This document shows positions 10,490-36,634 of a DNA stretch of 40,925 nt, one piece after another. The notes below the pieces were generated by a model. It made no database searches. It saw nothing but the letters and a program-made list of their open reading frames with translations, and was not told the DNA's origin. Source of the stretch: Planctomycetaceae bacterium (GTDB lineage: Bacteria > Planctomycetota > Planctomycetia > Planctomycetales > Planctomycetaceae); contig CANJQC010000039.1 in the NCBI GenBank assembly GCA_947476295.1, positions 1 through 40,925 of the forward strand. Reading direction: 5' to 3'. Each line of letters starts with the position of its first letter. Within the stretch, counting starts at the first letter, position 1. The position numbers were made by a program, and so were the translations under genes.

Positions 10490-10981
10490 CTATTTCTTTC
10501 CAAGTGCGCGCTGTTGCCGAAAAAATTCCTGAAGAATTGCGCGGCAGTCTTCCTGCATCACGCCGCCCAGCACCGCCGCCTGATGGTTCAGTCGAATGTC
10601 GGATGTCAGACTGAAGAGCGAATGACAGGCCCCCGCTTTTGGATCGGTTACCCCATAAACCACGCGAGGAATTCTGGCCTGAACGATGGCACCAGCGCAC
10701 ATCGTACACGGCTCAAGCGTGACGTACAGCGTACAATCAAGCAGTCTCCAGGACTGCAGAACCTCCGCCGCCTGAGTGATCGCGATCATTTCAGCGTGTG
10801 CTGTCGGATCATTGAGCATCTCGCGCTGGTTGCAGGCTTCAGCAATGATTTTTTCCTGATGCACAATGATCGCCCCGACCGGAACTTCTCCCTGATCAAA
10901 CGCCAACACTGCCTGATCCAGCGCTTTCTTCATCCAGAAATCGTGTGGCGTAAATGGATGGGATGGAAGTGGGTCCGACAC
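10490..10981 (-). CDS. tadA: tRNA-specific adenosine deaminase TadA
   Basis: This 163-residue zinc deaminase converts A34 to inosine in tRNA-Arg(ACG). The zinc/active-site residues are all present: H62 and E64 in TAHAEM, and C92 and C95 in PCTMCAGA. The DPTAHAE and [10 protein letters not shown] blocks together with the C-terminal helices distinguish TadA from cytidine deaminases. I place the start at GTG 10981 because AAGGA lies nine bases before it and the length then fits the family. The frame remains open 19 codons further upstream without a ribosome-binding site. The gene is flanked by non-coding DNA on both sides, so it is probably monocistronic. Confidence 0.93.
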
Positions 10982-11146
10982 AGGCAGAGTTCCTTGCAAA
11001 AGCAGGACTGAAAAATTGCAATTTTGTAAACATTGCAACGATCGAGCATTGTAAGAAATTCAAAACCATCCGACGAATCATGGTCGCTGGACCGCATGCC
11101 GAAAGCACCTGAAAAAACATGATCATGCTGTAAGTACAATAAAAAT

Positions 11147-11437
11147 AATGGGTTGCGGTGATTTAGAAGTGGCGATCGTGTCGAATTTCGACATGCTCCG
11201 ATGCTCGAATGGCACAGACATTGCTTAGTGGTTGTGATGAGAGAGAGAATGGGCTCGGAGTGAGATCCTTGAGCCCGACCGCTGCCCTGAGAACGCAGCA
11301 CACTGCCTTGAGACGCAGTGCAGAGAGAGACGATGGCTCGCCTGAGAAACGAGCCCGTGTATTTGAGCGAGTGCCTGAGAAACCTCGCTCCTTGAAAAAG
11401 GCCATCGGATTCAATTCAATCCGATCGGCCTTTTTTT
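11147..11437 (+). ncRNA. Candidate structured RNA: five hairpins sharing a UGAGA loop
   Basis: No credible gene occupies 10982-11599. On the plus strand, five hairpins follow each other at 11251-11276, 11281-11299, 11301-11320, 11335-11355 and 11365-11390. The stems differ (GGGCTC/GAGCCC, GCTGC/GCAGC, CACTGC/GCAGTG, GGCTCG/CGAGCC, GAGCGAG/CTCGCTC). The loops are nearly the same: GTGAGA, CCTGAGAAC, CTTGAGAC, CCTGAGAAA, CCTGAGAAA. Different stems that all pair, under a fixed loop core TGAGA, are what selection on RNA structure would leave. A sixth hairpin without the motif lies at 11177-11195. A strong intrinsic terminator closes the series at 11437. The 5' end is uncertain: TACAAT at 11135-11140 is a possible -10 box (start near 11147), but no good -35 box is seen. 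A multi-site protein-binding or sponge RNA is one possibility. The family is not one I recognise. Confidence 0.7.
11395..11437 (+). terminator. Intrinsic terminator of the candidate RNA
   Basis: GGCC plus ATCGGATT (11400-11411) pairs with AATCCGAT (11418-11425) and GGCC (11427-11430), with one bulged C and a 6-base loop. T7 follows at 11431-11437. The A5 run on the other side (11395-11399) would allow termination in both directions, but no gene on the minus strand reads into it from the right. It must therefore serve a plus-strand transcript starting in the gene-free stretch. Confidence 0.85.
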
Positions 11438-11599
11438 ATGCGCCAACGTCAGTGGTTTTTCTGATGGCATGGAGTTCGATACACTGGCGTCAGCAGAGGA
11501 CGGGGTCGCCGCGACGGCTGGGGACAGTCTGTCCGCGACCGCGGGGAAAGAATCGACTCACAGCAATCCTGGTTTATTTTAGAATCGAAAGCGAAAGTC

Positions 11600-12061
11600 A
11601 TGTCTGATCAGGACAAACGAAGCACCATTATTTCTGAACTCTGTGTCGCCTACTGGATGGAGATGGAAACGGTGATGAATTACATCGCCTGCTCCATAAA
11701 TCTGGATGGCGTTCGGGCGGAAGAAATCAAGTCGTCGCTGCAGGCAGATATTGCTGCGGAAATGATGCATGCTCAGTTGCTGGCGAAACGCATCAAGACG
11801 GTCGGCGGAATCGTTCCCGGCAGTGCGTCGTTCGTGTCGCGACAGGACAGCCTGCAACCTCCGAAAAAGATGACAGACGTGGTCTCCGTCATCAAGGGTG
11901 TGATTGTTGCCGAAGACTCAGCGATCGCACAGTATTCAAAAATCATTCAACTGTGCGATGGCTTCGACTATGTGACGCAGGATCTGTGCATCACCGCACT
12001 TGGTGATGAAGAAGAGCATCGCCGTGAATTCATGGGCTTTCTGGCTGAGTACGAAGGATAA
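11600..12061 (+). CDS. Ferritin-like diiron protein
   Basis: This 153-residue helical protein carries ferritin-like diiron ligands in the expected order: Glu in MEMETVMNY (E21/E23), E54 and H57 in AEMMHAQ, E105 in VAEDSAIAQY, and E137/H140 in GDEEEHRREF. The length and the four-helix spacing fit bacterioferritin- or Dps-like proteins of the ferritin-like superfamily, probably cytosolic and involved in iron storage or peroxide protection. I see no Met clearly placed as the heme ligand of bacterioferritin. The ATG at 11600 has only a weak Shine-Dalgarno sequence (GAAAG). It stands alone, downstream of the candidate RNA's terminator, so its promoter should lie in 11438-11599. Confidence 0.82.
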   Translation: MSDQDKRSTIISELCVAYWMEMETVMNYIACSINLDGVRAEEIKSSLQADIAAEMMHAQLLAKRIKTVGGIVPGSASFVSRQDSLQPPKKMTDVVSVIKGVIVAEDSAIAQYSKIIQLCDGFDYVTQDLCITALGDEEEHRREFMGFLAEYEG

Positions 12062-32883: not shown

Positions 32884-34314
32884 TTACACGATCTCCTCAA
32901 TAACTTTGCCTTCCAAGAACGTCAGCCGCTCATTTCTACCCTGATGCGGATATGTCAGCAGATGCTGATTGAGCCCCATTTGATGCAGGATGGTGGCGTG
33001 CAGGTCACGAAAGTGACAGGGACGTTCTATCGCACGTAGTCCAATGGCGTCGGTTGCGCCGACGACGCAGCCGCCCCGAATTCCACCTCCGGCCATCCAC
33101 ATACTGAAGCCCAGATTGTGATGGTCTCGGCCGTTAGCCGACTGCGCTTCCGGTGACCGGCCAAACTCCCCGCCCCATACCACCAGCGTTTCATCCAGCA
33201 GTCCGCGGCGTTTCAGATCTGTTAGCAGCCCTGCAATCGGCATGTCTGTTTCACCAGCTTTGCGAAGATGATTTTCCTCGATATCTGCATGTGCGTCCCA
33301 CTGCATCGCGCCTGGGCCACCTCCAGAAACAACGCAGACAAAACGCACTCCTGATTCGACAAGTTTTCGAGCTAACAGGCAACGTTGGCCGTAATCTCGA
33401 GTTGGTTCACGGTCGGCACCGTACAGTGCGAGAGTATCCTTAGTTTCTTTGGAAAGATTCAAAATGTCCGGCGCGCTCATCTGCATTCGAAATGCCAGAT
33501 CGTAGCTGTTGAGGCGGGCCTGAAACTCCTGATCCCCGGGGCGAATCGTGGCTGTGTTTAGTTCGTGGATCAGGTCCAGAGTGCGACGTCGCCCCTCCTG
33601 AGAGACGCCGGTCGGCAGTGCCAAGTTAAGGACAGGTCGGTTGCCAGAACGAAACACGGTCGGTTGAAAAGCCGCCGGCAGGAACCCCTGCATATACATC
33701 GGCTGACCGGCCTCAAGTGCACCGACCGGATCAGGCATCACAACGTATGCTGGCATCGACTGGCTTTCAACGCCCAGGCCATACACCAGCCATGATCCCA
33801 TACTGGGGAAACCGGGATTCAGACGTCCCGAAAACAGTTCATATTGCGCTGCGGAATGAACAACCATATCGCCGTACATGGACCGAATGACGGCAATGTC
33901 GTCGATACACTTCGCCGTATGCGGAAACAGATCGGAAACCTCAATTCCACTCTCACCATGTTTTCTGAAGCGACGTTTCGTACCCAGAATCGTCGTGTCA
34001 CCCTGGATCTGCTGATATTTGGCTTCGCCGAATTCTGCCGGACGTTTGTGACCGTGCAACTCGTTCAAGAGTGGTTTCGGATCAAATGTTTCGAGGTGAC
34101 TTGGGCCACCTGCCATAAACAAGAAGATCACAGATTTCGCTTTGGCTGGCCAGTGACAGGATCGCTCCGCAAGTGAATTCTGCATGCCCGCATCGGACTG
34201 GTTCGCCCGCAACAGCGATGCCATGGCCAGTCCGCCAAATCCACAGCACGCATCGCTGAGCATCTGGCGTCGGCTTAATGGAAATGGTGATTGTAATGTG
34301 TTGTCACGGGACAT
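32884..34314 (-). CDS. Tat-exported DUF1501 protein
   Basis: This 476-residue protein begins with a twin-arginine signal (SRRQMLSDACCGFGGLAMAS). It continues with the DUF1501 pattern: SVIFLFMAGGPSHLETFDPK, GNPVL-type loops, CVVSGGGPGAMQWDAHADIE, then LVVWGGEFGRSPEAQ, GRDHHNLGFSMWMAGGGIRG and a C-terminal HATILHQMGL. The family has an alkaline-phosphatase/sulfatase-like fold and is exported in planctomycetes; its reaction is not established. Its start overlaps the last 11 bases of the upstream PSCyt1/DUF1549/DUF1553 gene, the standard paired layout. An ATG four codons earlier (34326) is equally open; neither has a clear ribosome-binding site, as expected for coupling. Confidence 0.93.
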   Translation of the reverse strand: MSRDNTLQSPFPLSRRQMLSDACCGFGGLAMASLLRANQSDAGMQNSLAERSCHWPAKAKSVIFLFMAGGPSHLETFDPKPLLNELHGHKRPAEFGEAKYQQIQGDTTILGTKRRFRKHGESGIEVSDLFPHTAKCIDDIAVIRSMYGDMVVHSAAQYELFSGRLNPGFPSMGSWLVYGLGVESQSMPAYVVMPDPVGALEAGQPMYMQGFLPAAFQPTVFRSGNRPVLNLALPTGVSQEGRRRTLDLIHELNTATIRPGDQEFQARLNSYDLAFRMQMSAPDILNLSKETKDTLALYGADREPTRDYGQRCLLARKLVESGVRFVCVVSGGGPGAMQWDAHADIEENHLRKAGETDMPIAGLLTDLKRRGLLDETLVVWGGEFGRSPEAQSANGRDHHNLGFSMWMAGGGIRGGCVVGATDAIGLRAIERPCHFRDLHATILHQMGLNQHLLTYPHQGRNERLTFLEGKVIEEIV

Positions 34315-36634
34315 AGAGAAAATCATTCAGATTAAACAGAGCCAACGCGAATTCTTCCAAGGGCTGTTCGGCCAGAAATCGGATACTCAGCTCCTTTTCC
34401 GCTGCGTTTGGCATTCGTCCAAGCACAAGGCTGAATCCGCTGTCCGTCAGTCGTTCAGAATCGCTGCCGGCGATCATCCGCAGGCGTGCCGCTAGGGAAT
34501 GGGCCATGCTGTTAGAAAACGATCCGTTCAGCAGTTCCAGCGCCTGAGGCGCGTGAGTGCTCGATTCTCTTCGCGCACAACTGCTCATGAGAGTCGGCGC
34601 GTCGAATACTTCCATGAACGGAAGTCGCAGATTTCGTTTCGCGATCAGGTAGATAGACCGTCGATCATTATTGGAACTATCCGCAGGAACTTGCCATTGT
34701 GCAGGTTTATACAATAACTGGACCAGTTCCGGATCGACAGGTGTCATGATTCCTGGCCCCCCGGCCGCGCGGTTCAATCGGCCGGAAACCATCAGCATCG
34801 CATCCCGAAGCTGTTCGGCTGTCAATCGTCGCCGCGGAAAATGCCACAGTAGCCGATTCTCGGGATCGGAGATTGTCGCGTCTGATACGTGTGCTGAATC
34901 GCATCCCTGCCGATAAGTTTCGCTCAGCACAATCAGCCGATGAACTGACTTCAACTGCCAGCGATTTTTGATCAGATAGCTGGCCAGCCAATCGAGGAGC
35001 TCCGGGTGACTGGGAACGCCGCCGCGTGTGCCAAAATCATTGGGCGTACTCACAATCCCCAAACCGAAATGCTGTTGCCAAACTCGATTGACAATTACCC
35101 TCGCTGTCAGCGGGTTATCAGCAGCAGTCAGCCACTTTGCCAGTAGCGTGCGGGGGTTCTCCACGTCGAGTGGTAACTCGGGAACATGGGCGCCCACGAG
35201 GATACTTAAGGGGCGCGGGCCGACCCGTTCGCCTTTTTGCTCCCAGACTCCCCGGTGGAGTATATGGATCGCCGTTTGGTTCAAAAAGTTGTTCCGTGTG
35301 CCAGGGATTTGAGGCAGCGGCTCCGGCCGTCTGGATTCCAGTTCCTCTGCTTCCTTTTCGAGCTGCGATCGTTCAGGACCGGCAGCAACTCTGGCTTGTT
35401 CTCTCAGCCTGGCCTGGTGTGCTCTGACGTCCTCGGTGGACTTCTGCCAGGCGTCCTGCTGCGCCGGCGATGCCAGCGTCAGATTATTTTCGTCTGTTGC
35501 CGCAAAGTACGCCTGCAGGCAGTAATAGTCCTTCTGTGAGATAGGCTCCAGTTTGTGATTATGGCAACGTGCACAACCGATAGAGAGTCCCAAAATGGCC
35601 GTTCCGATTACGTCTGTGCGCTCGGTCAGCACTTCATTTCGGCTCAGGGCTAGCTCAGGGTTTCCCGCGTTACGACGGACAGGTCCAAGGCGATGAAAAA
35701 TAGAGGCCGTCTGATACTCTGTGTTGTTCGCGTCCAATTCATCGCCTGCGATCTGTTCTGTGATGAACTGATCAAACGGTTTATCACGATTCATGGAATC
35801 AATAACGTAGTCCCGGAATTGCCAAGCACCCGGCAAGTGGGTGTCGTATTCGAAGCCTTCGGTTTCTGCGTAACGAATGACATCCAGCCAGTGTTGCGCC
35901 TGGCGTTCTCCAAAATGCGCACTGTCCAGTAGTTGGTCGACGACTTTTTCGTATGCCTGAGGCGAAGCGTCCTGCAGAAAAGTCTGGACCTGTGCTGGTT
36001 CCAGCGGCAGGCCAATCAGATCCATCGCGACGCGGCGGATCCATGCTGCACGATCAACGGCAGGGGCCTGTTTCCAAGCCTCTTGCTCCAGTCGAGCCAG
36101 CACAAATGCATCCACTGGATTTCTAACGTCAGCTGGATTTTGCGAGCCAGGCAGCGCAGGTGATGAGAGAGGCTGAAATGCCCAGTGGTTCTTCGGATCA
36201 TCGGTTTCTGCCAATTCCGGTTCCACGTGGCGAGGATCCATAGCACCCTTCTCAATCCAACGTATGAAATCAGCAATGACCTGATTAGGCAGCGGGTCTC
36301 GATTCGGCGGCATCTGCAAGCTGTTCTGATGCCGCAACGCCTGCAGCAGCAGACTCTCATCAGGCTTACCTGGCACGATCGCCGGACCACTATCGCCACC
36401 CCTCAGAATTCCTAGGCCGGAATCCAGTCTCAGTCCGCCCTCAATCTTGTTTGCATCTTTAGAATGACACTGATAGCACTCCGCTTTCAGCACCGGCTCG
36501 ATCCGCTCGGAAAAATACTGCAGGAGCGTTGCATCACTGCCGTCCGAATTCTCCGCTGCCAGACTGTCTGTGCCGGATCCTGTCAGCAAACTGATTGTCA
36601 GCAGGGCTACGAGTTTTCCGGTTTCGAGTAACAT
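34304..36634 (-). CDS. Exported PSCyt1-DUF1549-DUF1553 multidomain cytochrome
   Basis: This 776-residue protein has a short N-terminal hydrophobic signal (about 8-27). A planctomycete cytochrome-c domain follows, with CYQCH at 53-57 and a QMPPNRDPLP segment carrying the Met. DUF1549 (PSCyt2) starts near HWLDVIRYAETEGFEYD and includes SIGCARCHNHKLEPIS, a second CxxCH. A coiled, charged linker leads to DUF1553 (PSD1), with NPLTARVIVNRVWQQHFG, then PSHPELLDWLASYLI and SETYRQ. These proteins, always paired with DUF1501 partners, are a planctomycete hallmark. They are presumed to move electrons in the periplasm; the substrate is unknown. The ATG at 36634 begins the signal peptide; its ribosome-binding site is weak. 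Confidence 0.93.
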   Translation of the reverse strand: MLLETGKLVALLTISLLTGSGTDSLAAENSDGSDATLLQYFSERIEPVLKAECYQCHSKDANKIEGGLRLDSGLGILRGGDSGPAIVPGKPDESLLLQALRHQNSLQMPPNRDPLPNQVIADFIRWIEKGAMDPRHVEPELAETDDPKNHWAFQPLSSPALPGSQNPADVRNPVDAFVLARLEQEAWKQAPAVDRAAWIRRVAMDLIGLPLEPAQVQTFLQDASPQAYEKVVDQLLDSAHFGERQAQHWLDVIRYAETEGFEYDTHLPGAWQFRDYVIDSMNRDKPFDQFITEQIAGDELDANNTEYQTASIFHRLGPVRRNAGNPELALSRNEVLTERTDVIGTAILGLSIGCARCHNHKLEPISQKDYYCLQAYFAATDENNLTLASPAQQDAWQKSTEDVRAHQARLREQARVAAGPERSQLEKEAEELESRRPEPLPQIPGTRNNFLNQTAIHILHRGVWEQKGERVGPRPLSILVGAHVPELPLDVENPRTLLAKWLTAADNPLTARVIVNRVWQQHFGLGIVSTPNDFGTRGGVPSHPELLDWLASYLIKNRWQLKSVHRLIVLSETYRQGCDSAHVSDATISDPENRLLWHFPRRRLTAEQLRDAMLMVSGRLNRAAGGPGIMTPVDPELVQLLYKPAQWQVPADSSNNDRRSIYLIAKRNLRLPFMEVFDAPTLMSSCARRESSTHAPQALELLNGSFSNSMAHSLAARLRMIAGSDSERLTDSGFSLVLGRMPNAAEKELSIRFLAEQPLEEFALALFNLNDFLYVP

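Follow-up and report, generated by a model that had tools for sequence, protein, structure and literature searches.

A short intergenic stretch of a Planctomycetaceae contig (the window, 40,925 nucleotides analysed at full length) carries a row of five hairpins on its plus strand, and the question it raises is what such a row of hairpins is, how far it is conserved and what it might do. The features that we recognise in it are collected in Table 1. The stems of all five hairpins differ, TGAGA is present in five of the five loops, and the series ends in a terminator, as a sequence-only reading of this DNA had described and as both the sequence and the predicted fold confirm. The same reading had named a nine-base loop, CCTGAGAAA, as occurring twice; it forms the whole loop of h4 only, whereas the h5 loop has 12 nt and includes it as a part. 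It had also begun the feature at 11147, which is too early: a sigma-54-type promoter lies downstream of that point, and the usual spacing between such promoters and the transcription start puts the expected beginning of the RNA near 11236, so that positions 11147–11209 are upstream of the promoter and outside the RNA. The next gene, which had been placed about 160 bases further on, indeed starts at 11600, 162 bases past the T run.

Table 1. Features of the small RNA locus and its divergent flank (window coordinates; h1 to h5, hairpins 1 to 5).
Feature	Position	Strand	Remarks
tadA (tRNA adenosine deaminase)	10490–11038	−	NCBIfam equivalog over cut-off; divergent flank, outside the RNA
Sigma-54-type −24/−12 promoter TGGCACAGACATTGC	11210–11224	+	Strict pattern match
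Small RNA transcript, ~200 nt	11236–11437	+	Predicted from sigma-54 spacing (start) and T run (end)
5' GAGAGAGAGA leader	11239–11248	+	Start of the R1 match; GAGA-rich counterpart in homologs
Hairpin 1 (h1)	11251–11276	+	GGGCTC-GGA-GTGAGA-TCC-TT-GAGCCC; inner part GGA-GUGAGA-UCC
Hairpin 2 (h2)	11281–11299	+	GCTGC-CCTGAGAAC-GCAGC; loop CCUGAGAAC
Hairpin 3 (h3)	11301–11320	+	CACTGC-CTTGAGAC-GCAGTG; loop CUUGAGAC
AGAGAGAGAC linker between h3 and h4	11322–11331	+	Conserved in alignment
Hairpin 4 (h4)	11335–11355	+	GGCTCG-CCTGAGAAA-CGAGCC; loop CCUGAGAAA
Hairpin 5 (h5)	11365–11390	+	GAGCGAG-TGCCTGAGAAAC-CTCGCTC; loop UGCCUGAGAAAC
Intrinsic terminator with T7	11395–11437	+	Terminator-like stem and T run also in inspected homologs

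Between positions 11235 and 11391 there are five UGAGA hairpins with a stem of at least five pairs, against at most two in any of 5000 dinucleotide shuffles, and when segments of 160 nt were taken in steps of 20 along both strands of the window, three or more UGAGA hairpins were found solely over the RNA stretch. The fold energy of the window RNA has a z-score of −4.46 and is lower than in any of 200 shuffles. Its genome contains the stretch once (one match at E ≤ 0.001), and a repeat finder run on the window reported no repeats, because the stems differ.

A DNA search of 59 relatives identified clear homologs in 13 genomes, 12 from the same genus and one from another, which together with the window gave a first set of 14 sequences. 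A covariance model running from the leader to the fifth hairpin (R1, built from nine sequences) and searched against 170 genomes of the family returned 37 rows in 33 genomes at E ≤ 1. The small RNA accounts for 29 of these rows, one per genome and all at E ≤ 5.9e-6, and is thus found in 29 of the 170 genomes and in 6 of the 58 genera: 13 loci belong to the window's genus, four to g42, seven to g43, three to g68 and one each to g6 and g63, the last of these (genome G131) being the weakest match at 31 bits. The remaining rows are four mRNA leaders, which are described below, and four weak matches (G077:C64, G175, G183 and a second one in G071) that have no sigma-54 site and that we take as chance. 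The window's genus is represented by 18 genomes; no R1 row came from G002, G010 and G014, and in G005 and G015 the mRNA leader was detected and the RNA was not; several of these five are incomplete assemblies.

Rfam searched at gathering thresholds gave no match over the window. At E ≤ 5, five loci returned 11 matches, none of which reaches its family cut-off, and the sole match on the strand of the RNA is to a fungal snoRNA model (22.1 bits against a cut-off of 48). Among the papers listed from the open full-text literature, outside of which most subscription journals fall, no title or abstract opening describes such an RNA family; for the whole PVC group, the table of one review holds eight distinct annotated small RNAs (PMC9029176). 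Judged from comparison of genomes, the locus represents a real, conserved small-RNA family that is undescribed as far as the Rfam and literature searches reach.

We aligned to R1 all homologs except that of G074, which lies at a contig end. In the resulting 28-row alignment (A4), 91.8% of the cells are paired and two-sided changes are seen in 24 of 30 pairs; none of 500 shuffles reaches any of five pairing measures, and sliding the partners by one column lowers pairing to about 43%. For h4, 98.1% of the cells are paired, with two-sided changes in four of its six pairs. An alignment based on R1 leans towards the model; in a separate MAFFT alignment of 14 sequences, RNAalifold scored two-sided changes in 16 of 33 pairs. 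The homologs thus show the compensatory changes expected from selection on RNA structure, which the sequence-only reading had proposed from the window by itself. Its suggestion of a covariance-model search in relatives has yielded homologous loci with kept loops and covarying stems in the 29 family genomes, and its statement that it knew of no described family with this loop agrees with the Rfam results.

Hairpin number, spacing and stem sequences all drift between genera. A mechanical count over the 29 loci found 103 hairpins whose loop holds UGAGA or UGAGG, and their 5' stems comprise 63 distinct sequences; there are four hairpins in 17 loci, three in five, five in three, two in two and one in one, and the single locus with none is G131. 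In the alignment of 14 sequences, the position of h3 is filled in the window's genome (G000), G001, G012, G013 and G022 only. Under a stricter stem rule applied to the first 180 nt, the 29 loci have 92 UGAGA-loop hairpins against two GGA-loop hairpins. Both of the latter are in G131, which has no UGAGA hairpin, and one of them, CCGGAGAAA, stands at the place of h4. The earlier claim that the loop is not the GGA motif is consequently correct for all loci but G131: a scan of the other 28 shows no GGA-loop hairpin whose stem reaches five. The G131 locus (L068 / L087) keeps a sigma-54-like site and a GAGAGAGAC leader despite its GGA loops, and is a possible bridge to loops of the CsrA type.

A relaxed −24/−12 pattern is found 25–31 nt upstream of the R1 model start in 29 of 29 loci, compared with 1.2% of 45-nt segments drawn at random from these loci, and the strict pattern (TGGCAY-N4-5-TTGC) is found in 23 of 29, compared with 0.116% of such segments. 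On the plus strand of the window, the site in Table 1 is the sole match to the strict pattern; a second one on the minus strand, at 34223, is within a large coding frame (32884–34326, minus strand) and is probably chance. A sigma-70 scan of positions 10900–11700 gave one site, at 11557–11585, and none upstream of the RNA. The GAGA-rich leader of the homologs follows the promoter at the same distance as in the window, in variants that include GAAAGAGA and GAGAGCAA. When 397 genomes of the class were searched for the strict promoter pattern followed by AGAGAGA, 23 matches in 22 genomes were recovered, against one for the reversed control. Sixteen of the 23 are the small RNA, all of them in the window's family, and the other seven are not homologs of it. 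Two of the matches, L265 (G394) and L284 (G001:C54), lie immediately upstream of small genes whose products we take, from their reading frames, to be a CsbD-type protein and a DUF2383-type four-helix protein, which suggests that these are sigma-54 stress genes.

R1, although built on the small RNA alone, also matched four mRNA leaders (E values of 1.9e-5, 2.1e-4, 2.6e-4 and 0.15). Each is preceded by a sigma-54-type promoter and followed by a gene whose product, of 256–285 aa, has by eye a single N-terminal hydrophobic segment and a Cys-rich body; this protein presumably resembles pilin-like proteins, and no family in Pfam or NCBIfam was found for it. In the window's genome the leader gene is G000:C110; upstream of its start codon lie a sigma-54 site, at 415 nt, and a GGCGG-CCTGAGAAA-CCGCC hairpin, at 240 nt. 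We compared 58 homologous loci with sequence, including five from other families; close orthologs were split from the rest by tblastn score alone (above 80 bits), and the counts exclude two loci that have less than 300 nt of upstream sequence. A UGAGA hairpin and at least two GAGAGA strings are present within 600 nt upstream in 11 of the 12 close orthologs, and the twelfth, in G022, has GAGAGA strings and no UGAGA hairpin. Among the 44 more distant homologs, 41 have neither and three have both; these three, in G007, G008 and G011, are homologs with a long ORF and perhaps the same leader gene. A sigma-54 pattern, strict or relaxed, lies no more than 600 nt upstream in seven of the 12 close orthologs and none was found within that distance in the other five, of which G006 has a short contig; in front of the G070 leader gene the pattern lies slightly farther away, at 603 nt.

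The leader stems vary by genome (GAAGGTGG/CCACCTTC, GGCGG/CCGCC, CAGCCTG/CAGGCTG, TGCTCG/CGAGCA and CGTGTC/GACACG), and because they differ while UGAGA stays, the loop of the leader looks selected too. No close ortholog of the leader gene was found in six RNA-bearing genomes (G001, G003, G071, G072, G076 and G143), and it can therefore not be the sole target.

In 14 genomes, SSCCTGAGAAASS was matched 95 times and its reversed control 52 times. Of the matches that belong neither to the small RNA nor to the leaders, 27 are GC-closed, and seven of these have a stem of at least five; five of the seven represent a single hairpin, located at the stop codon of a regulator with HTH and receiver domains, and the other two are within reading frames. 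No wider target set emerged from GC-closed CCTGAGAAA hairpins in the 14 genomes. The stop-codon hairpin was rejected as a target and is regarded as coincidence; its loop is made up in part of Ala and stop codons, it is also present in three genomes of the same genus that are without the RNA, and other genera have different loops. The regulator itself is 79–100% identical in 24 of the 26 family genomes searched, and in many genomes its gene ends in an inverted repeat around the stop codon; in the window's genus, nine of 11 genomes have CCTGAGAAA or CCTGAGAAC as the loop (the loci are G000:C50 (L152), G001:C9, G004:C86, G006:C241, G009:C102 and relatives).

We judge it reasonably probable that the RNA is a sigma-54-controlled decoy that titrates a UGAGA-binding protein away from mRNA leaders, a reading that we infer from the anatomy, conservation, covariation, promoter motif and shared leader element observed above. 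Transcription of the free-standing RNA gene would be switched on in some condition by sigma-54 RNA polymerase and an activated enhancer-binding protein, and would end at the intrinsic terminator. The transcript would display a repeated recognition element, consisting of the UGAGA loop on a short stem and of single-stranded GAGAGA strings, to which a small RNA-binding protein would bind. The same element in the 5' leader of the Cys-rich-protein mRNA, in many genomes behind a sigma-54-type promoter, would be bound likewise, and the small RNA would compete for the protein and titrate it off the leaders, with release or exposure of the leader as the presumed direction of the effect. The sequence-only reading had seen the hairpin series and overlooked the sigma-54 promoter and the mRNA-leader relatives; its comparison with RNAs that hold many copies of one protein-binding loop now has indirect support, at the level of sequence, from the constant loops, the changing stems, the variable hairpin number and the hairpin in the mRNA leader.

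The anatomy would also suit any other multi-site protein-binding RNA, for example a ribonucleoprotein core or a regulator of an enzyme, in which the loops bind protein for assembly and not for titration. We consider such a role unlikely, since the drift in hairpin number, spacing and stems and the presence of the element in an mRNA leader are a better fit to a decoy and its target. The RNA might instead act by base pairing, its CCUGAGAAA loops and GAGAGA strings meeting pyrimidine-rich sites (UUUCUCAGG, UCUCUC) with the repeats adding avidity; the loops are conserved and predicted to be open, and some sigma-54 small RNAs do act through pairing. However, the 11-mer SCCTGAGAAAS occurs 20 times on both strands of the RNA's own genome against 13 times for the reversed control; the small RNA and the leader account for three of these 20, and complementary sites of this length are without clear excess. 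Moreover, the related leaders carry the motif in sense orientation, as the small RNA does, and not its complement. With an equal sense motif in both RNAs, they would not pair with each other through it, and a shared binder is the simplest reading; on balance, action by pairing appears quite unlikely.

That R1 aligns to the leaders over model positions 1–140 is what would be seen if the leader element were a duplicated piece of the small-RNA gene, the loop being shared by descent and not through a shared binder. Against this, leader stems differ between genomes and UGAGA is kept, and we regard this explanation as decidedly improbable, while common origin and a shared binder are compatible with each other.

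The ferritin/Dps-like gene at 11600 is on the same strand as the RNA, and its relatives follow the RNA in G001, G012 and G013 also; given that the element does serve as an mRNA leader elsewhere, the RNA could be a cis-acting leader or attenuator of this gene. Yet a strong terminator stands between the two, the ferritin-like gene was seen downstream of the RNA at four loci that are all in the window's genus, and six of nine other loci of its relatives have no R1 match as far as their flanks reach. Elsewhere the downstream neighbours of the RNA vary in family and strand, and on its other side the RNA adjoins tadA, divergently, in 15 of the 29 loci (the window and 14 others) from five genera. With varying downstream genes and synteny with tadA, a free-standing gene is the best reading of the RNA, and a cis-acting role is highly improbable. 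Two public MAG records, L031 and L036, contain close relatives of the window's ferritin-like protein (94% and 83%, respectively), and L031 also carries the small RNA; both are titled Candidatus Kuenenia stuttgartiensis, an organism name that looks wrong for these contigs. Finally, hairpins and GA strings are individually simple, but the absence of a comparable series from all 5000 shuffles, the single copy, the conserved locus and the covariation leave virtually no likelihood for a chance cluster or a mobile repeat.

The decoy reading that we prefer can be compared with protein-titrating small RNAs, which are known mostly from proteobacteria. CsrB/CsrC and RsmX/Y/Z, which titrate CsrA/RsmE, are alike in repeating one loop motif on several hairpins and in single strands between them, in ending at an intrinsic terminator, in having a variable copy number, and in the occurrence of the motif within the 5' leader of an mRNA as well. 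They differ in that their loop motif is GGA, GGA to AGA mutations having been made to abolish RsmE binding (PMC4005645), whereas here it is UGAGA and the promoter is of the sigma-54 type. GGA is present in none of the five window loops, and that at 11257–11259 belongs to the stem of h1. No CsrB/Rsm family of Rfam matched, either over the window at gathering or in the five loci at E ≤ 5. Since its loops are without GGA, the RNA is not a member of the CsrB family.

RNAs of the EutX/Rli55 type titrate ANTAR proteins by means of a repeated stem-loop common to the small RNA and mRNA leaders, and a small stem-loop shared in this way is found here too. ANTAR elements, however, are paired hairpins with six-base loops, whereas the RNA described here has several single hairpins with UGAGA loops mostly of nine bases; the loops of h2 to h5 have 8–12 bases, and a six-base loop can be closed in h1 only. 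CrcZ uses A-rich single-stranded sites, in contrast to the purine GAGA motifs, mostly on hairpins, of the present RNA, and is found at the cbrB locus, in contrast to the tadA neighbourhood and the lack of an Rfam match here. The likeness to CrcZ/CrcY of Pseudomonas, which titrate Hfq/Crc, is in the sigma-54-type promoter, recognised here by motif only; transcription of CrcZ and CrcY requires sigma-N and CbrB, and the two RNAs bind Crc/Hfq (PMC8871633).

The search for a binding protein covered CsrA (PF02599). CsrA is present in 59 of the 59 relatives searched, with 2–16 matches each and nine in the window's genome (contigs C9, C32, C40, C49, C85, C120, C141, C161 and C173), and several copies are altered around the HRxE segment (LRKE, VMRGE, IVRE, ITRPE). 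Trees were made of 84 csrA loci from six genomes with the RNA and six without, at first with 78 sequences and then with all 84. One divergent clade is present in six of six genomes with the RNA and in none of the six without (support 0.91 with 84 loci). Its members, L252, L287, L299, L306, L255 and L312, read ESI(Q/E)I...VRLSI...VR(V/I)(L/V)R(K/G)E; none of the six loci added to the 84-sequence tree joins them, and the nearest G021 sequence, L315, falls outside. The member from the window's genome, L252, scores 71 bits against a Pfam CsrA cut-off of 27 and is just under the NCBI csrA equivalog cut-off (65.3 against 70.1). At the sequence level, the co-occurrence of this clade with the RNA is suggestive and makes it a candidate only, in a contrast of 12 genomes and about ten paralog groups compared by eye, where G002, G010 and G014, of the same genus and without the RNA, group on the CsrA tree and leave perhaps two independent contrasts.

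In the 350 nt upstream of the clade csrA genes, neither a sigma-54 site nor GAGAGA was found in any of the six genomes. Across the 44 csrA loci scanned, a sigma-54-like pattern lies upstream of two, and the match in the window's genome falls in the terminal part of an upstream ORF and appears spurious; the 44 upstream regions contain no UGAGA hairpin and one weak GGAGA hairpin. Sigma-54 targets in Planctomycetia are enriched in csrA (COG1551), according to a genome-wide study (PMC12316311). We regard a diverged CsrA paralog as the likeliest binder, at the rank of a candidate. More tentatively, and as a possibility that we would not yet call probable, planctomycetes with many CsrA paralogs may run insulated Csr-like circuits, in which the RNA would be the sigma-54 decoy of the L252-clade CsrA, specificity would have moved from GGA to UGAGA, and the UGAGA-leader mRNA would be among the targets. 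If this were true, G131, where GGA loops replace UGAGA, would show the older state.

Few small RNAs are annotated in planctomycetes, and a conserved protein-titrating one that has a sigma-54 promoter and a distinct loop code would give the phylum a Csr-like decoy. The RNA, its leader relatives and the candidate protein are open to direct testing, and the finding would make testable why these genomes keep 2–16 CsrA matches, as each paralog may have its own RNA code.
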